Assembly: GCF_012726175.1 (NCBI RefSeq)
Contig: NZ_JAASAD010000013.1
Span: forward strand, 62,001 to 126,000
From: Micromonospora sp. HNM0581
GTDB taxonomy: Bacteria; Actinomycetota; Actinomycetes; Mycobacteriales; Micromonosporaceae
Direction: 5' to 3'
Length of the DNA: 64,000 bases
Part shown: piece after piece, positions 2,963 through 11,548 of the stretch
Layout of the letters: the number at the start of each line of letters is the position of its first letter
How positions within the stretch are numbered: the stretch's first letter is position 1
The notes under the pieces: model-generated
Database searches by the model: none
What the model saw: the letters and a program-made list of their open reading frames with translations, nothing else
Told to the model about the DNA's origin: nothing
Program-made: the position numbers and the translations under genes

Positions 2963-3007
2963 ATAGCGATACATGTGAAATGCGCTCGGGTGAGGGAGAA
3001 TGGTGCC

Positions 3008-3811
3008 GTGCCCGAAGGTGACACCGTCTGGAACACCGCCCGCGTCCTGGAACGCGCGTTGGTCGGCACCCGACTGACCGGCAGCGATTTCCGGGTCCCC
3101 ACGCTCGCCGCCGCCGACCTGACCGGCTGGTCGGTACGCGACAGCGCCAGCCGGGGCAAACACCTGCTGCTCCGGCTGGGCGCCCCCACCGGCACCGGCG
3201 AGTCACGCTGGACGCTGCACTCACACCTGCGGATGGACGGCACCTGGCGGACGTACCCCCCCGGACAGCGGTGGACGGCCCGGCCGGCGCACCTGATCCG
3301 GGTGGTGCTGCGCACCCCGGCCGCCACCGCGGTCGGTTATCACCTCCACGAGCTGGCGCTGGTGCCCACCGCCGACGAGGAGCGGCTCGTCGGCCACCTC
3401 GGCCCCGACCTGCTCGGTGCCGACTGGGATCCGGCCGAGGCGGTCCGTCGGCTCGGCGCCCGCCCGGACACCGCCGTCGGGGTGGCCCTGCTCGACCAGC
3501 GCATCCTGGCCGGAGTCGGCAACCTCTACAAGTGCGAGGTGCTGTTCCTGCGCGGTCTGCACCCCCGCACCCCCGTGCGGGAGGTAACCGACCTCACCGG
3601 CCTGGTCACCCTGGCGCAGAAGTTGCTGGCCGCGAACCGCGGTCGCTGGACACAGAGCACCACGGGCTCGCTGGCACGCGGACGGACGAGCTACGTGTAC
3701 GGGCGCCGGGCGCAGCCGTGCCGGCGCTGCGGCACCGCCATCCGCAAGGAGGAACTGGGTGACCGGGTCACCTACTGGTGCCCCAGCTGCCAGCCGGGTG
3801 CCCTGGCCTGA
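3008..3811 (+). CDS. Nei/Fpg-family DNA glycosylase-AP lyase (endonuclease VIII type)
   Basis: The 267-residue protein should remove oxidised bases and nick the DNA backbone in base-excision repair. The start is the GTG at 3008 because it places the obligatory Pro-Glu at positions 2 and 3 (PEGDTVW), the catalytic N-terminal proline and glutamate of the family. The helix-two-turn-helix region includes LLDQRILAGVGNLYKCEVLF, and the C-terminus carries the Cys4 zinc finger (PCRRCGTAIRKEE, YWCPSCQ). The PEGDT N-terminus and finger fit the actinobacterial Nei branch better than Fpg/MutM, which usually begins PELPEVE. Expression appears monocistronic, divergent from the secreted protein gene. Confidence 0.9.
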   Translation: MPEGDTVWNTARVLERALVGTRLTGSDFRVPTLAAADLTGWSVRDSASRGKHLLLRLGAPTGTGESRWTLHSHLRMDGTWRTYPPGQRWTARPAHLIRVVLRTPAATAVGYHLHELALVPTADEERLVGHLGPDLLGADWDPAEAVRRLGARPDTAVGVALLDQRILAGVGNLYKCEVLFLRGLHPRTPVREVTDLTGLVTLAQKLLAANRGRWTQSTTGSLARGRTSYVYGRRAQPCRRCGTAIRKEELGDRVTYWCPSCQPGALA

Positions 3812-4053
3812 GCCCAACGCATCTTCCACCCGACGGACCGGACAGTGCGGAACCGGTGGACGGCCGGCGTCCAGACCGGCGCGGAGTGGCGGCGGCGACA
3901 CGCCGGCAGCTCGGGAGATTCGCCCGAAAGGGGACTTCCTAACCGGCCACCGCGCATCGCATGCTGCGGTTGAGGGATCACGGAACGTCAGCACGCGCGT
4001 CCGCGCCGCCACGTCGGGGTGGTGGCCGCCGCGCCCCGATCACCGGGAGAGCC

Positions 4054-7000
4054 ATGGCCGTGTTCCGCAGACTCCGGTCGACCTGGCTGGACCGTACCGC
4101 GTCGGGCACGCCGAACGCCGTCCCCGGTGCCCGGTCCGCCCCGAACCAGCAGAACGACACGGGCTCCGATCCCGACGCCGATCCTCCGGCGGGGTCCGAC
4201 GCCCACGGCACCGGCCCGGACGTACCGACCCGGAACCCGGTGCCGCCTTCGCAGGCGGCACCGCCCGGATCGCCCCGCCCAGGGCCGGCCACTCTCGACC
4301 CGGCAGCGCCCCCCCGCTGCTTCGGGCCGGTGCCGAACCACGCCTACAGTCCGCTGCCGGTCCACGACGAGGACGGGCAGGTGGTACCGGGCACCGGGTT
4401 GCGCAGGTTCGTCGACCCGCTGCCCGGCCTCGACCTGCTGGGGGATGATCCGCCCGGCCCCCACCTGCCGGTCGCCGTGCCCGACACCATCACCTATCCC
4501 GGCTGCGACTACTACGAGATCGGGTTGCAGGAATACACCCAACGGCTGCACCGGGACCTACCGGCGACCCGGCTGCGCGGCTACCGTCAGCTCAACCTGG
4601 GCACCAACCCCGACGGGCACAACACCATCGTCCCGCCTCCGCGCCCCTGGCATCTCGGTCCGGTCGTGCTCGCCCGACGCGGCCGACCGGTACGGATCAA
4701 GTTCATCAACCAGCTGCCCACCGGCGACCTCTTCCTACCGGTCGACCCGACCGTGCCCGGCGCCGGCTCCGGGCCCCTCGACGGCCCGGCGCCCTACCCG
4801 CAGAACCGGGCCGTGCCGCATCTCTGCGGTGCGCTCACCGGCTGGATCAGCGCCGGAAACCCATGGCAGTGGTTCACTCCGGCCGGCGAGATCACTCCCT
4901 ATCCCACCGGCACCGGCCTCACCCACGTGCCGGACATGACCCACCCGGGCCAGGGCGCCACCACCCGCTACTACCCGAACGACCAGAGCGGTCGCCTGCT
5001 CTGGTTCCACGACAACACCGTCGGGCTGTCCCGGCTGACCACCTACTCCGGCCAGCTCGCGCTCTACCTGCTCACCGATGACGCGCAGGAACGGTTGATC
5101 GACGACGGGACGTTACCCGCCGACCAGCTACCGCTGGTCTTCGAGGACAAGACGTTCGTGCCGGACGACGCCCAACTCGCCGCCCAGGACCCGACCTGGG
5201 ACCGGGACCGGTGGGGCGCCCGGGGTTCCCTCTGGCACCCGCACGTCTACCAGCCCCGCCAGAACCCGTACCGCCGCGACGGGAGCAACCCGACCGGCCG
5301 GTGGGACTACGGGCCGTGGTCGCGTACGGCCGCAGCCGACCCCGACGCCCCCGCCGCAGCCGTGCCCAACCCGCACCACGACCCCGTCACCGACCCCGAC
5401 GAGCCTCCGGAGGCACCCGGCGTGCCGCACCCGAGCGCCGTCCCCGCCACGTACGGCGACACGGTCCTGGTCAACGGTGCCGCCTACCCGTACCTGCAGG
5501 TGCAGCCGAGGGTCTACCGGTGGCGCATCCTCAATGCCTGCACCGACCGCTGGCTCAACCTCCAGCTGTACCGGGCCGCCTCGAACGCGCCGATGTGGAC
5601 AGCGGAGGGCACCGTCGCCGATCCTGCCGCCGGTGAGGTGCCGATGGTCGACGCGGTACGCGCCCCGGACCGACCGGCCGGCTGGCCCACCGACGGCAGG
5701 CCCGGCGGCGTACCGGACCCGGCGGCGGCCGGCCCGGAGATGATCCGAATCGGCAACGAGAGCGGCCTGCTGCCGGCGCCCGTGGTCGTGCCGAACCGGC
5801 CGATCGGCTTCCGCTACGACCGACGCGACCCGACAGTGCTCAACGTCGACCGCCACGCCCTGCTACTGGCCCCCGGCGAGCGGGCCGACGTGCTCGTGGA
5901 CCTCGCCACCGTGCAACCCGGCAGCACCCTGATCCTCTACAACGACTGCCCCGCCCCGCTGCCCTGCTTCGACGGCCGCTACGACCACCACACCGGCGGC
6001 CCGGACCGCACCGCCGAGGGCGGCGCCCCATCGACCGTGCCCGGGTACGGCCCGAACACTCGTACGTTGATGCAGCTACGGGTGACCGGCGAGCCGACGA
6101 CACCGTACGACATCGACCGGCTACGGGACCGCCTGCCCGGCGCGTACGCGGCCAGCCAACGCCCTCCGGTCGTGCCGCAACCCGCCTACGATGCCTGCTT
6201 CGGCACCACGAGCGCGGCGACCCGGATCCCGGTCCATGCCACCACCGTCGAGTTCACTCCGCCCGGTGGCTCACCGGTGCACCTGCCGCTGACCGTGAGG
6301 TCCGTGTGCCAGGTCTTCGAGCCCGAGTACGGCCGGCTCACCGGCCGCCTCGGTGTGGCGCACCCGTCCGGCGGACCAACCGGGCCGGTCACCCTGCCGC
6401 TCGGCCCGACCGGACCGGCGACCGAGGTACTGTACGCCAGCGACCCGGCCCTGGCCGTCGGCACACCGGGCGACGGCAGCCAGCTCTGGCGGGTACGCGG
6501 CTGCGGGCGGCAGAGCCATCCGGTGCGCTTCGACGGCCTGGACGTTCAGGTGATCGGCCGGGTCGGCCGGGACGGCACGATCAGGCCGCCGCACCCCGGT
6601 GAACTCGGCTGGAAACAGGTGATCCGCGTCGATCCCGGTGAGGACGTGCTGCTCGCGCTGCGCCCCGAGGCACCCGCCCTACCATTCAAGATCGGAGACA
6701 GCGTACGACTGCTCGACCCGACCCGACCGGCGGGCGCCCGGCTCGACACCGCCCCGATCAGCCCCGTCGACGGTCAACCCGCCTCAGTCGTCAACCAACC
6801 GGTCAATCTGGGCTGGGAGTTCCGCTGGGGCAGCGCGGCGGGCGGCCATCGGGACCAGGGTATGAGCCGGCCGCTGGTGATTCGGGTCTCGCCCCTGGCA
6901 CCCACCGGGCTCACCGCCGCGCCGGTCCCCGGCTCAGCGACCGCCCTGCCGGCGATCGCCCTCGCCTGGACCGGCAATGGCAGCCGCCCGCCGGCCACCA

Positions 7001-7764
7001 GCCACCTGCTGCAACGCGCCACCGACGCGACCTTCGCCAACGGGCTGACCACGATCACCGTGGCGGCCACCGCGACCCGCTACACCGACGCCACCGTCAC
7101 CCCCGGGATCACCTACCACTACCGCATCCGCGCCGAGAACGCCGCCAGCTGTTCCACCTGGTCGAACAGCGTTCCCGCGTCGGTGCAGCTGACCGCGCCG
7201 GCCAAGCTGACCGCTGCCATCCCACCCGTCACGCCGCTACGGGTGGCGCTGCGGTGGACCAACAGTTCCTTCGCCACCGGCATCGACGTGCAGCGCGCCA
7301 CCAACCCGACCTTCACCAGCGGGCCCGGCACCACCGCGATCAGCGTCGGCGACAACCACCTGGACCCGGCGGTCGCACCCGACACCACCTACTACTACCG
7401 GGTACGCACCACCTACCTGGGCGCCGCCTCGCCCTGGTCCACCGTGGCGACGGTGACCACCCCGCCGACGCCAGGTACACCGACCTCGGTGAGCGTGGCC
7501 GCCACCGCGCCTGGCCCGGACACCGCCACCGTCGTACTCGGCTGGTCCGTCAGCCCGCCCACCGGACAGGGCGGCGGCTTCACCGTGGAACGGGCCCTGG
7601 ACCCGACGTTCACCCGGGAGGTGGCCACGTTCACCGTCACCGGTCGGGGCTTCACCAACACCGGCCTGGCCCGAGGTGTCACCTACCACTACCGGGTGCG
7701 CTCGTTCAACGTGGTCGGATCCTCCCCGTTCACCGGTCCGATCCCGGTCACCACACCAACCTGA
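4054..7764 (+). CDS. Multicopper-oxidase-like protein lacking copper ligands, with three fibronectin III domains
   Basis: The 1,236-residue protein has a Pro-rich N-terminal segment (about 20-85), a long CotA/bilirubin-oxidase-like cupredoxin region (about 90-945) and three fibronectin type III repeats (about 950-1047, 1048-1137, 1138-1236). Family landmarks are clear: HLxGAxTxWIS, TRYYPNDQSGRLLWFHD, FRYDRRDPTVLN and LGWEFRW. The copper ligands are not intact: the first HxHG is H256-L-C258, HDH is H319-D-N321, the HPVHFH site is HPVRFD (822-827), and the terminal HCHxxxH is GSAAGGH (926-932), so even the type 1 copper cysteine is gone. No signal peptide is seen. GGGAGA precedes the ATG. I infer a non-enzymatic binding or structural protein; catalysis is unlikely. 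Confidence 0.85.
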   Translation: MAVFRRLRSTWLDRTASGTPNAVPGARSAPNQQNDTGSDPDADPPAGSDAHGTGPDVPTRNPVPPSQAAPPGSPRPGPATLDPAAPPRCFGPVPNHAYSPLPVHDEDGQVVPGTGLRRFVDPLPGLDLLGDDPPGPHLPVAVPDTITYPGCDYYEIGLQEYTQRLHRDLPATRLRGYRQLNLGTNPDGHNTIVPPPRPWHLGPVVLARRGRPVRIKFINQLPTGDLFLPVDPTVPGAGSGPLDGPAPYPQNRAVPHLCGALTGWISAGNPWQWFTPAGEITPYPTGTGLTHVPDMTHPGQGATTRYYPNDQSGRLLWFHDNTVGLSRLTTYSGQLALYLLTDDAQERLIDDGTLPADQLPLVFEDKTFVPDDAQLAAQDPTWDRDRWGARGSLWHPHVYQPRQNPYRRDGSNPTGRWDYGPWSRTAAADPDAPAAAVPNPHHDPVTDPDEPPEAPGVPHPSAVPATYGDTVLVNGAAYPYLQVQPRVYRWRILNACTDRWLNLQLYRAASNAPMWTAEGTVADPAAGEVPMVDAVRAPDRPAGWPTDGRPGGVPDPAAAGPEMIRIGNESGLLPAPVVVPNRPIGFRYDRRDPTVLNVDRHALLLAPGERADVLVDLATVQPGSTLILYNDCPAPLPCFDGRYDHHTGGPDRTAEGGAPSTVPGYGPNTRTLMQLRVTGEPTTPYDIDRLRDRLPGAYAASQRPPVVPQPAYDACFGTTSAATRIPVHATTVEFTPPGGSPVHLPLTVRSVCQVFEPEYGRLTGRLGVAHPSGGPTGPVTLPLGPTGPATEVLYASDPALAVGTPGDGSQLWRVRGCGRQSHPVRFDGLDVQVIGRVGRDGTIRPPHPGELGWKQVIRVDPGEDVLLALRPEAPALPFKIGDSVRLLDPTRPAGARLDTAPISPVDGQPASVVNQPVNLGWEFRWGSAAGGHRDQGMSRPLVIRVSPLAPTGLTAAPVPGSATALPAIALAWTGNGSRPPATSHLLQRATDATFANGLTTITVAATATRYTDATVTPGITYHYRIRAENAASCSTWSNSVPASVQLTAPAKLTAAIPPVTPLRVALRWTNSSFATGIDVQRATNPTFTSGPGTTAISVGDNHLDPAVAPDTTYYYRVRTTYLGAASPWSTVATVTTPPTPGTPTSVSVAATAPGPDTATVVLGWSVSPPTGQGGGFTVERALDPTFTREVATFTVTGRGFTNTGLARGVTYHYRVRSFNVVGSSPFTGPIPVTTPT

Positions 7765-8270
7765 TCGATCGTCTCGTCGCCCAGCCGTACGGTGAACAGT
7801 GCCCCCCGGCCGGGTTCGCTGGCCACCTCTATGGTGCCGTCGTGTGCCAGCGCCAACTGGCGGGCGATGGCCAGCCCCAGCCCGCTGCCACCGGTGCTCC
7901 GGCTACGGGACGCATCGGCCCGCCAGAACCGGTCGAAGACCCTCGGCAGATGCTCAGCGGCGATGCCTGCACCGGTGTCCCGCACGGTGATCGTCGTACC
8001 GGTCGCGCCGGCCGTCACCGAACCGCCGGTCGGGGTGTGCCGGATCGCGCTGGCGACCAGGTTGCCGACGAGCTGACGCAACCGCACGGCGTCGCCGGGA
8101 AGCACCGGGTCGTCGCGGACGTCGAGCGTCAGCCGCACACCGGTGCCCTGTGCCGCGCCGAGGTGGGCGTCCACCACCTGGGCCAACACGTCCCCCAGGT
8201 GGACCGGCTCGCGATGCAGGCGCAGCGTACCCGGCCACCGCCAGTCCACGAACTCCGCGCATGACACCAT
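7689..8270 (-). pseudogene. Histidine kinase remnant: ATPase domain without the dimerisation domain
   Basis: The frame encodes about 193 residues holding a complete HATPase_c domain: an N box (LVGNLVASAIRHTP), G1 (DTGAGI), F box (FDRFWRAD) and G2 (GGSGLGLAIARQL). Everything upstream that a sensor kinase needs is missing: no membrane segments, no HAMP and no phospho-accepting H-box. The frame extends only about 20 codons past the ATG before a stop at 8331-8333, and that stretch is not kinase-like. Its 3' end overlaps the convergent oxidase-like gene by 76 bases. No response regulator gene lies beside it. The simplest reading is a decayed two-component gene; a free-standing ATPase domain protein is a less likely alternative. 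Confidence 0.6.
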
Positions 8271-8475: not shown

Positions 8476-9258
8476 TCAGTAGGTGGCCGTCGGGCGGCTC
8501 ACCGTACGCAGTTCGGACAGGGCGGAAGCGAAGCCGTGCAGCAGGTCCGTCGCCTCGGCCAGCCGGGCTGCCGCCGGATGCTCCGTCTCCGGGCGGTACT
8601 CCTCCGCCAGGTAACCGGCGGCGGCCACCACCAGTCGCTCGTACGCCGTCACACCGTTCTCCAACTGCCCGGTGAGCGCCCGGTGAGCCTCGGCCAGTGG
8701 CGGCTTCGCGTCGACCGGGGCGAGCCGGACCGCATGTTCGACGCTGGCGACCCGGCTGGCCAGGTCACGTAAAGACCGTTCAGCGGCGGAGGCCTCCGCG
8801 ACGGCCGGTTCGGCGAGGCCGGTCAGCCGGCCCGCCATGGACGCCATGGTCGCGGCGGCCCGGTCCAGACGCTCCCACGGCTGGGCGGCGGTGGTGCCGC
8901 GCAGCGCGGCCCGGGAGCGGACCCGACGCACCTCGGCCAGCACCCCGGCACCAGCGGGAAGCCGCTCCACGGCGGCGACCAGGCGGGCCCGGTTGCGGGC
9001 GGCCACCTGAGCCGCGTCGAGCGGCGGCGGAGCCGGCTGGGCGGCGAGTACGCGCAGGTCCACCCAGCGCCAAGCGGCCAGCGCGGTGGCCGCGCCCGCC
9101 GCGGCGGCCCAGGCCGCGTCACCGAGACCGAGACCGGCGTACGGGGTCAGCACGGCCGTGGCACCGCCGAGGCCACCGGCCAGGACGCTCCACCGCCGGG
9201 CGGAACCACGCAACCTGCTCAGCCTGCGGAAGTACCGGGTACGCTCGTCCGCCGCCAC
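8476..9258 (-). CDS. pspM: PspM-like membrane protein of the phage shock system
   Basis: The 260-residue protein has two hydrophobic segments near the N-terminus (about residues 23-45 and 47-70), then a long Ala/Arg/Glu-rich helical region. It directly follows pspA and clgR in the order clgR-pspA-pspM, the arrangement known from mycobacteria, where PspM anchors PspA at the membrane during envelope stress. The GTG start has GAGGAGG five bases upstream. Only 42 bases separate it from pspA, so the two are probably co-transcribed. The name rests on context and architecture as much as on sequence. Confidence 0.7.
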   Translation of the reverse strand: MAADERTRYFRRLSRLRGSARRWSVLAGGLGGATAVLTPYAGLGLGDAAWAAAAGAATALAAWRWVDLRVLAAQPAPPPLDAAQVAARNRARLVAAVERLPAGAGVLAEVRRVRSRAALRGTTAAQPWERLDRAAATMASMAGRLTGLAEPAVAEASAAERSLRDLASRVASVEHAVRLAPVDAKPPLAEAHRALTGQLENGVTAYERLVVAAAGYLAEEYRPETEHPAAARLAEATDLLHGFASALSELRTVSRPTATY

Positions 9259-9300: not shown

Positions 9301-10158
9301 TCAGCCGGCGTTCGTGGTGCCGCCGGTGCCGCGTTCACGGCTCATGCTGGTGCGGATCTCGTCGAGCCGAGCCACCGCCGGGTCAGCTGCGGCTGGCCGG
9401 TCGGCGGCGCCCTGGTCGGTGCCCGCACCGAGCTGCTCACCGGCCATGCTGGCGCGGATCTGGTCCAGCCGGGTGGCACCGGCCGAATCCAGGGCCGCCT
9501 GTTGGATCTCCAGCATCCGGCCCTCCGCCGAGTTGCCGGCCAACTCGGCCCGACCCATGGCGTTCGCGTAGCGGCGTTCGATGCGGTCGCGTACCTCGTC
9601 GAGGGTGGGGGTGCTGCCGGGGGCGGTGAGCGCCGACATCGACTCCAGCGACGCGGCGACGCTCTCCTGCATCTTGGCCTGCTCCAGTTGGCTGAGCAGC
9701 TTGGCGCGCTCGGCGAGCTTCTGCTGGAGGATCATCGAGTTGTTCTCCACCGCCCGGCGGGCCTGCCCGGCGGCGGCCAGCGCCTGGTCGTGCAGGGTCT
9801 TCAGGTCCTCTGCGGACTGCTCGGCGTTCACCAGCTGGGTGGCCAAGGTCTGTGCGGACTGCTCGTAGCGCCCAGCCTCGGTCTCGTCGCCCCTCGCACG
9901 GGCCTGGTCGGCCAGAACCAGTGCCTGGCGGGCATTTGCCTGCAACCGTTCGACGTCAGACATCTGCCGGGACAGCTTCATCTCGAGCTGACGCTGGTTA
10001 CCGATCACCGCGGCGGCCTGCTGAACGAGCGCCTGGTGCTGTCGGTGCGCCTCGTCGATGGCCTGCTGAAGCTGCACCTTCGGGTCGGCGTGCTCGTCGA
10101 TGCGGGCGCCGAAGAGCGCCATCAGGTACTTCCACCCCTTGACGAACGGGTTCGCCAT
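9301..10158 (-). CDS. pspA: PspA/IM30-family envelope stress protein
   Basis: The 285-residue protein opens with the family signature [20 protein letters not shown] followed by [17 protein letters not shown], then continuous alpha-helical coiled coil to about residue 200. Acidic and Gln-rich heptads ([20 protein letters not shown]) are typical. The last ~60 residues are a flexible tail with a repeated RLDQIRASM / RLDEIRTSM motif. Proteins of this family form ESCRT-III-like membrane rods that stabilise damaged membranes; in actinobacteria PspA also binds ClgR and restrains it. The gene sits between clgR and pspM in the same direction. Confidence 0.93.
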
Positions 10159-10341: not shown

Positions 10342-10800
10342 TCAGGCGGCGCAGACCACGTCCCGGTCGCTGCGGTCGGTGGGCCGGACCCGGGCACTGC
10401 GCAGCGTGGCCTTGAGCGGTGAGTCCTGCCGCACGGAGACCGCGACGTTACCGTCCGAGGTGACCTGCCGTACGCCGCGACCGGTGGCCTTGGACGCCGG
10501 CGCGGCGGTGACCGGCGTCGACCCGGTGGGCTCGTCCTGCACCGGCACCAGCACGCCCGGCATGTGCTCGGCGAGTGCGACGGTGTCGCTGACCTCCCGC
10601 AACAGCTCGGAGAGGCGGGCTCCCAGTGCATCGCAGATCGCCGCGAGCAGTTCGCTTGAGGGCTCTTTCTGGCCGCGTTCGATCTCCGAGAGGTAGCCCA
10701 GGCTGACGTTCGCGGCGGACGAGACCTCACGCAGTGTGCGGTGCTGCCCCTGGCGGCGCGCCCGTAGTGCGTCACCGATCACCCGGCGTAGCAGGACCAT
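10342..10800 (-). CDS. clgR: ClgR-like XRE-family transcriptional regulator
   Basis: The 152-residue protein carries an N-terminal XRE helix-turn-helix at about residues 10-62 ([21 protein letters not shown], helix 3 reading the major groove), followed by a variable tail. The GGGGAGG site five to six bases before the ATG at 10800 fixes the start; the longer frame is spurious. ClgR controls clp protease genes and, in mycobacteria, the psp operon after envelope stress; PspA sequesters it. Position directly upstream of pspA-pspM supports the name. The 240 bp upstream, between clgR and cinA, is non-coding and should contain its promoter. The tail ends DVVCAA: an AA terminus can be a Clp degradation signal, consistent with the ClgR family. 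Confidence 0.88.
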
Positions 10801-11038
10801 CGCACCTCCCCTGAGGGACACAGTTCGTCCGGCCGACCGGCCTGCGGGAGCACCGGCTGTCGGAGCTTTCCCGCAACCGTACCCGCTGTACGCCGCCACG
10901 ACATCCCGCCCCGCCCGGTCATCCCACAGCAGCCGCTCGCCAGTCGACCGTTCCGTGGCGGCGAAGCTGCCCGACCGGCCGGTACGACGGCAACTGGGTA
11001 CGACGACCCGCCGGCACCACACATCGACGGCGGCAAGG

Positions 11039-11548
11039 TCAAGTCGGGTCGGGTGCATCGATCTGACCGGCGAGCAGACGCAGGGCCTCGGTGACGGCCG
11101 CACCGCGAATTTCGTCGCGACCGCCGTCGAGATCGAGCCGTCGCACCTCGGTGCCCTCCGGGCCGGCGACCGCGACGAAGACCAACCCGACCGGCTTACC
11201 GTCCTGGGATCCGGGGCCAGCCACACCGGTGGTGGCCACACCCCAGTCGGCGCCGCAGCGCCGCCGTCCCCCCTCGGCGAGCGCCCTCGCCACGTCGGCG
11301 TCGACCGGCCCGCGCTCCGCCAGCAACTCCGCCGACACGCCGGCCAGCTGTTCCTTCAGCTCCGTGGCGTAGACCACCAGCCCACCCCGGTAGACGACGC
11401 TCGCTCCGGCGATCTCCACGATCGTGGCCGCCAGTAGGCCCCCGGTCAGCGACTCGACGGTGGCGAACGTCTCCTGCCGCTCAGCGAGACGGTGCACCAC
11501 GCCCGCTGCTGCGGCACCCATCGCACCCTCGCCCTCGCGTACCCCCAT
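11039..11548 (-). CDS. CinA C-terminal domain protein (nicotinamide-nucleotide amidohydrolase)
   Basis: About 169 residues, consisting of the CinA/PncC amidase domain alone. Family motifs are the catalytic-serine block [12 protein letters not shown], the [12 protein letters not shown] segment and [11 protein letters not shown]. The domain hydrolyses nicotinamide mononucleotide to nicotinate mononucleotide in pyridine nucleotide recycling; actinobacterial copies upstream of recA/clgR are often annotated competence-damage inducible. Three ATGs are possible (11557, 11548, 11521); the middle one has GGGAAGG at a workable distance, and the last has GAGGG, so the start is uncertain. It follows pgsA by about 55 bases and likely shares its transcript. 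Confidence 0.87.

Follow-up and report, generated by a model that had tools for sequence, protein, structure and literature searches.

A CotA-like protein of Micromonospora with degenerate copper sites, probably retained for a binding or structural role

Gene and domain layout

The window analyzed here is a stretch of 64,000 nucleotides from Micromonospora sp. HNM0581 (assembly GCF_012726175.1, contig NZ_JAASAD010000013.1, positions 62,001 to 126,000). At positions 4054 to 7764 of its forward strand lies the gene for a 1,236-residue pseudo multicopper oxidase, a homolog of the Bacillus spore coat protein CotA in which seven of the 11 copper ligands are gone. The surrounding open frame spans positions 3961 to 7764 (+) and has an in-frame ATG at 3961 as well, yet comparison of relatives places the conserved start at the ATG at 4054. 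The gene was the sole match to the protein in its own genome at an E value of ≤0.001, and plasmid and phage collections searched with the protein yielded no record covering 80% of the query. Best-segment protein identity to relatives was 88% for Verrucosispora sediminis, 87% for V. sioxanthis, 86% for Micromonospora sp. C95, and 85% for M. lutea.

Residues 83 to 940 (positions 4300 to 6873) form the region assigned by sequence searches and Foldseek as CotA-type, with three cupredoxin domains. The protein matched the CotA structure 1gsk in phmmer with an E value of 4.9e-35, and a family profile matched a second CotA structure, 2wsd, with an E value of 2.4e-50; the profile alignment held all four ligand motifs in register, with the caveat that the profile pieces carrying motifs 3 and 4 were nonsignificant on their own (0.62 and 28). 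Parts of residues 151 to 876 matched CotA and related oxidases in the sequence searches. By these alignments the homology to CotA is certain, as the CotA-like fold of the preliminary description had implied. Conclusions about the fold of the oxidase part rest on sequence homology because the AlphaFold model is of low confidence there; the Foldseek search with that model as the query agrees, having 2wsd as its top match (5.5e-20). Most PDB sequence matches bear oxidase names, as do two of the three NCBIfam matches, whose scores lie far under the cutoffs, and automatic annotation could easily call this protein an oxidase.

Ahead of the cupredoxin region lies a variable linker rich in proline, alanine, and threonine (residues 16 to 79, positions 4099 to 4290), in which about 6% of columns 16 to 70 are conserved at ≥95%; the predicted local distance difference test score (pLDDT) is below 50 over model residues 1 to 88, corresponding to protein residues 37 to 124. 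Behind it lie three fibronectin type III (Fn3) modules (residues 945 to 1236, positions 6886 to 7761). Pfam scores one of the three above its cutoff, and the AlphaFold tail (the C-terminal 290 residues, approximately residues 943 to 1236) is confident and aligns with chains of three Fn3 domains, in line with the three domains first described. The further suggestion that these domains were gained alongside the loss of copper ligands did not hold, because ligand-complete relatives have the tail too. Pfam fn3 matches were present in the ligand-complete L132 and L133 and in L064, which keeps 10 of 11 ligands; L132 to L136 align across the entire tail, with full-length BLAST alignments to these and to L058 and L060 at 53 to 58% identity reaching up to query residue 1235; and the C-terminal tails of the outgroup resemble it as judged by eye.

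Copper ligands and their loss across the family

The four copper motifs are altered exactly as first reported. Aligned with working oxidases, the two HxH motifs read H-L-C (residues 256 to 258, positions 4819 to 4827) and H-D-N (residues 319 to 321, positions 5008 to 5016), the HxxHxH motif reads HPVRFD (residues 822 to 827, positions 6517 to 6534), and the HCHxxxHxxxxM motif reads GSAAGGHRDQGM (residues 926 to 937, positions 6829 to 6864), all on the forward strand. In CotA numbering, H105, H153, H419, and H497 are kept along with the axial Met502, and H107, H155, H422, H424, H491, C492, and H493 are gone, the type 1 Cys position being occupied by Ser. The statement that the protein had lost its copper ligands was thus right for seven of 11, including the type 1 Cys, and too strong because four remain. 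Also replaced are the two residues whose acid groups take part in dioxygen reduction in CotA: the D116 equivalent is Ala267 (positions 4852 to 4854, +) and the E498 equivalent is Arg933 (positions 6850 to 6852, +). Both CotA acids are named and discussed in the parts of PMC2944330 consulted.

Ligands were called in 99 rows of aligned homologs, of which 18 readable rows fall outside the clade of the window protein and 80 fall within it; L129 was placed in neither class, being recognizable over its C-terminal half only. The partial rows L070, L073, L074, and L078, the ordinary oxidases L089 and L090, and antisense frames were left out before counting, and 16 of 17 matching distant genomes were used, the exception being G342, which is truncated by the end of its contig. 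All 18 readable rows outside the clade hold all 11 ligands. A second match at 55 to 56% identity, located elsewhere in the genome, occurs in five of 121 genomes of the genus, and these five paralogs are likewise complete; all 23 ligand-complete rows also have D116 and E498. Within the clade, one to three ligands are kept in 20 of the 80 rows, four in 37, five or six in 15, and eight to 10 in eight, and the type 1 Cys is retained in six. Every one of the 71 Micromonospora/Salinispora-type rows lacks the type 1 Cys and has Ala at D116 and Arg at E498, and Asn321 is present at 99% across them. The losses are therefore common to relatives of the window protein, and sequencing error, named in the preliminary description as a refuting explanation, is ruled out.

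The loss is graded, because 10 further Micromonosporaceae rows (from Plantactinospora, other genera of the family, and Micromonospora sp. HM5-17) keep two to 10 ligands; in none of these rows are both acids intact. Equivalents of H105 and H153 are retained in 75 and 74 of the 80 clade rows, respectively, and Met502 is retained in 66, while only one of 11 ligands is left in L045, L067, and L081. When the Met is counted, eight of the 12 ligand columns lie at the 79th to 96th percentile of variability in the 80 degenerate rows.

In a tree of 50 rows, inferred after removal of the ligand columns, the ligand-complete outgroup falls on one side (support 100/100). The ligand-complete, signal-less Micromonospora paralogs make up one clade (100/100), and its sister is the copper-site-degenerate clade (92/97, a single group in 90% of the 200 bootstrap trees). 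Within the degenerate clade, Plantactinospora-like rows keep eight to 10 ligands including the Cys, L082 and L083 keep eight to nine without it, L084 keeps six, and the remaining rows keep one to six. The minimum number of changes across the 11 ligands on this tree is 37, a count that gives no direction; 10 of the ligands need at least two changes each, and the Cys needs one. This graded pattern in the aligned sequences points to a loss that was stepwise and partly parallel, and the loss of different ligands in different early branches fits a relaxation of constraint following one shared event.

Conservation and distribution

The rest of the protein has been kept. Ratios of nonsynonymous to synonymous substitution rates (dN/dS) were 0.17 to 0.31 in 13 pairs, and of 219 columns invariant in the 18 ligand-complete rows, 177 still reach ≥80% conservation among the 80 degenerate ones. 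When the 71 Micromonospora/Salinispora-type rows were compared with the 23 ligand-complete rows over 835 columns, 188 columns were fixed to the same residue and eight to a different residue, the latter including H155 to Asn321, D116 to Ala267, and E498 to Arg933; a further 68 columns that vary in the 23 rows are fixed at ≥98% in the 71, although the 71 rows are closer kin than the 23 and these counts of refixed columns are inflated. Columns conserved at ≥95% make up 48%, 58%, and 39% of the three Fn3 modules and 50% of the oxidase part, so that conservation is roughly equal in the two regions. These values uphold the earlier impression of a well-kept scaffold and indicate purifying selection; together with the shared ligand losses and the replacement of both acids they argue at the sequence level that the protein is maintained for some function besides copper redox chemistry.

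Of the 121 genomes searched in the genus, 120 had a match and G359 had none, and no match listed had an internal stop; these figures describe the presence of a match, the locus and ligands having been read in part of these genomes. In 71 of 77 loci a single open frame extends over at least 1,050 residues of the query, and four of the other six are partial at contig ends. Distribution beyond the genus is patchy. Among 61 genomes drawn over the family, 12 gave a match at the search threshold, two of them to the ordinary oxidases L089 and L090, and the match was strong in 10; three of these 10 are the genus itself, and another, L088, is a secreted, ligand-complete copy.

N terminus and export

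The protein begins with a conserved basic peptide, MAVFRRLR (residues 1 to 8, positions 4054 to 4077, +), in the place of a signal peptide. An MxxFRRLR-like motif was counted in 81 of 84 copper-site-degenerate rows versus none of the 23 ligand-complete rows, and of the three rows counted without it (L081, L085, and L046), the true frames of L081 and L085 do show it. F4, R5, and R8 are present at ≥98% in the 71 rows. An amphipathic membrane helix at this end was considered and is unsupported, as none of 77 peptides (first 14 residues) gave a shuffle P value below 0.1 (median, 0.30).

Signal peptides were sought with a simple hydropathy scan rather than a trained predictor, over residues 1 to 150 of stop-to-stop frames for the outgroup and over 75 residues from the start for the other groups; the line between signal-like and other stretches was drawn by eye, with 13 rows scoring ≥2.25 and all others ≤1.62, and the counts are rough. 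Of the 17 outgroup rows, among which L088 is counted, 13 had such a stretch. The scan found none in the window protein (12-residue mean, 0.20), none in 77 degenerate rows (top 12-residue mean, 1.62), and none in the six ligand-complete paralogs L132 to L136 and L077. The absence of a signal peptide noted in the preliminary description therefore stands as far as the scan can tell, but it is not distinctive. As to the display role raised there, display outside the cell is unsupported because no export signal was seen. Since the ligand-complete sister clade also lacks a signal peptide, export was probably lost before copper, and the loss of export is the obvious candidate for the shared event that would have preceded the ligand losses. 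Multicopper oxidases usually acquire copper outside the cytoplasm, so this order of events would supply a simple mechanism.

Neighboring genes and upstream DNA

The locus of the gene is mostly fixed between nei and psp genes. Upstream lies a nei/fpg-type DNA glycosylase gene identified by Pfam (positions 2975 to 3811, +), which 69 of the 75 loci reaching far enough have at an upstream distance of no more than 2.6 kb and which is absent from L046, L048, L064, L075, L076, and L077. Downstream and convergent lie an Rv2743c/PspM-family gene (PF25587, positions 8476 to 9258, −), pspA (PF04012, 4.1e-39; positions 9301 to 10158, −), and, at the clgR position of the psp cluster, a gene for a helix-turn-helix (HTH) regulator (HTH_3, positions 10342 to 11241, −) whose frame probably exceeds the gene and which gene order suggests is ClgR. 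Convergent pspM and pspA were present in 59 of 61 loci reaching far enough, the exceptions being L076 and the paralog L077. The actinobacterial psp operon (clgR-pspA-pspM-pspN) is linked to envelope stress in the consulted parts of PMC11237479, which also describe PspM as restricted to mycobacteria and corynebacteria; the PF25587 match in a Micromonospora, with relatives in those 59 loci, contrasts with that restriction. A truncated histidine kinase ATPase fragment (PF02518, window positions 7692 to 8270, −) overlaps the 3' end of the pseudo multicopper oxidase gene and lies between that gene and pspM; as none of 77 homologous loci has it, it appears to be an insertion or remnant specific to this strain.

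A 17-base element, TCGCATGCTGCGGTTGA, lies upstream of the gene (positions 3957 to 3973, +); 64 of 72 loci have it at a distance of 93 to 103 nucleotides from the start. A second conserved block with the consensus ACGATTGGGTAaTTCCTAAC (positions 3924 to 3943, +) has diverged in the window, where it fails a four-mismatch scan. Both blocks are conserved over Micromonospora and Salinispora with near-constant spacing; row L029 in this alignment was read from an incorrect start and is not a true member of it. The element has one exact copy in its own genome and is gene specific there; a genome-wide regulon was rejected, as 13 matches at ≤3 mismatches did not exceed the 21 of a reversed-pattern control. 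No Rfam leader matched it at E values up to 1. It may be read as CGC-N5-GCG, a candidate ClgR site; the 459 bases preceding the HTH frame contained no CGC-N5-GCG match.

Proposed function and alternatives

We consider it likely that this protein is a copper-free pseudo-oxidase, presumably located inside the cell, its most likely role being that of a rigid binding scaffold; a dead enzyme was probably retained for a binding or structural job. The ancestor, in Actinomycetota, would have been a CotA-type multicopper oxidase that was secreted and had an Fn3 tail, and its export signal would have been lost on the way to the Micromonosporaceae. One descendant may then have settled between the nei and psp genes with a short basic N-terminal peptide and shed its copper ligands and two acids stepwise and partly in parallel, while purifying selection would have held the remaining fold and the Fn3 tail. 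In such a protein partners could be bound by the cupredoxin block and Fn3 arms, and the N-terminal peptide, carried on a flexible linker, could address the scaffold. A bolder form of this proposal, which we put forward only tentatively, is a genus-wide core cytoplasmic scaffold with its trinuclear cavity rebuilt around Asn321 and Arg933 and with the peptide and Fn3 arms tethering it to the ClgR-PspA-PspM machinery.

Several observations weigh against a copper-free scaffold. Four His and the Met are still present in the window copy, and as many as 10 ligands survive in a few rows, so that some metal binding is possible. The sister-clade branch was not starred, and the refixation counts are inflated as stated above. 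The copy in L061 is broken, with residues 935 to 1146 absent and a change of frame, and the match in G367 is split over two frames and looks broken. The signal-less L132 to L136 keep their full ligands, so a copper-type protein can persist without a signal, and an unrecognized export route is possible. The psp genes adjoin convergently and share no operon with the gene, and a shared psp function does not follow from neighborhood alone. Over the oxidase part the AlphaFold model is of poor quality, with a mean pLDDT of 57, so that no claim of a refilled cavity rests on structure, and the models of dead and live copies (57 and 48) are too poor to be compared.

Among the alternatives, the one that we take most seriously, though clearly less probable, is a spore- or wall-associated protein that is freed by lysis or an unrecognized route and uses its Fn3 arms for display. 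CotA is itself a spore coat protein made without a signal peptide, and the Fn3 tail is present; there was, however, no direct sign of sporulation control, and the literature on copper oxidases of Micromonospora, Micromonosporaceae, and Salinispora held nothing specific among the matches listed. It is doubtful that the protein is still a metalloprotein whose leftover His residues (equivalents of 105, 153, 419, and 497) bind another metal or fewer coppers for another redox or a hydrolytic reaction. The high retention of H105, H153, and Met502 (75, 74, and 66 of 80 rows) would fit such an enzyme, whereas the variability of eight ligand columns, with unlike replacements in sister clades, the reduction of L045, L067, and L081 to a single ligand, and the replacement of both acids in 71 of 71 rows would not.

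A gene that is simply decaying, its constraint relaxed after relocation and with no present function, would explain the graded, partly parallel loss (37 changes over 11 ligands), the broken copy in L061 and probably in G367, and the lack of a match in G359. This explanation is already unlikely, and we give it little weight, given matches free of listed internal stops in 120 of 121 genomes, the long open frames in 71 of 77 loci, dN/dS ratios of 0.17 to 0.31, and the conserved upstream element and N-terminal peptide. Least credible is cargo of a protein shell, a microcompartment or an encapsulin, although the layout of peptide plus linker would fit such cargo and the own genome has two bacterial microcompartment (BMC) shell genes (C45:104759-105302; L139 and L140, surroundings L142). 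BMC shell genes occur in seven of 61 genomes of the genus versus a match to the gene in 120 of 121, a distribution that rules out the microcompartment; the encapsulin family PF04454 was not found in the own genome, other encapsulin families not having been searched.

The preferred interpretation, a retained scaffold, has a use beyond this protein. Within one bacterial family the death of an enzyme is visible at stages of 11, 10, 9, 8, and 6 and then 5 to 1 of 11 ligands, and some of the same genomes hold intact paralogs. With this system one can ask directly whether export is lost ahead of the metal site and which task preserves a dead oxidase as a core gene.

Comparison with known systems

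Relatives of multicopper oxidases without copper are an already known kind. Titles and abstract openings from the literature search held no account of this family, its graded loss, or its genus-wide conservation among the matches listed. The plant SKU5/SKS proteins, which are multicopper oxidase relatives, likewise lack copper ligands; they differ in being plant proteins that are secreted or anchored by glycosylphosphatidylinositol. Geobacter OmpB, which would be a relative at the superfamily level, differs in being exported and, by the part of its description consulted, a copper enzyme.

The secreted Fn3-tailed oxidases of Actinomycetota (L076, L115 to L128, and L130) and the paralogs L132 to L136 belong to the same family at approximately 35 to 60% identity and have an Fn3-like tail; they differ in having all 11 ligands and both acids intact, and a signal-peptide-like stretch is present in 13 of 17 rows of the outgroup and in none of the paralogs. 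L115 to L128 are large, with frames of 1,312 to 1,925 amino acids in Actinomycetota genomes of 1.3 to 3.9 Mb; some bear FAEGTCRPNFDPYITIQNPG-type inserts, and L120 and L121 end in other repeats. A Pfam subtilase S8 gene (L133:9784-11505) adjoins the ligand-complete, signal-less paralog in L133, and a gene of similar length holds the same position in L132, L135, L136, and L077 but was not seen in L134. CotA of Bacillus is the best match in the PDB both by sequence and by Foldseek, but it is a 513-residue chain without an Fn3 tail and, in the parts of PMC2944330 consulted, a functional copper enzyme that has both D116 and E498.

A precedent for a copper-free role of this fold is FtsP (SufI) of Escherichia coli, which, in the parts of PMC2661564 consulted, keeps two of 12 ligands, crystallized without metal, and has been proposed to act as a scaffold. 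Both proteins have a multicopper oxidase fold with ligands lost, the loss here being read from sequence alone. FtsP is a twin-arginine translocation substrate whose nearest structural relative is CueO (PMC2661564, same parts), whereas the window protein is CotA-like and Fn3 tailed with no export signal seen, and its SufI matches in the PDB span a short stretch only. By analogy, the window protein most likely works as proposed for FtsP and would be of separate origin, lying outside the FtsP family by the tests made here.

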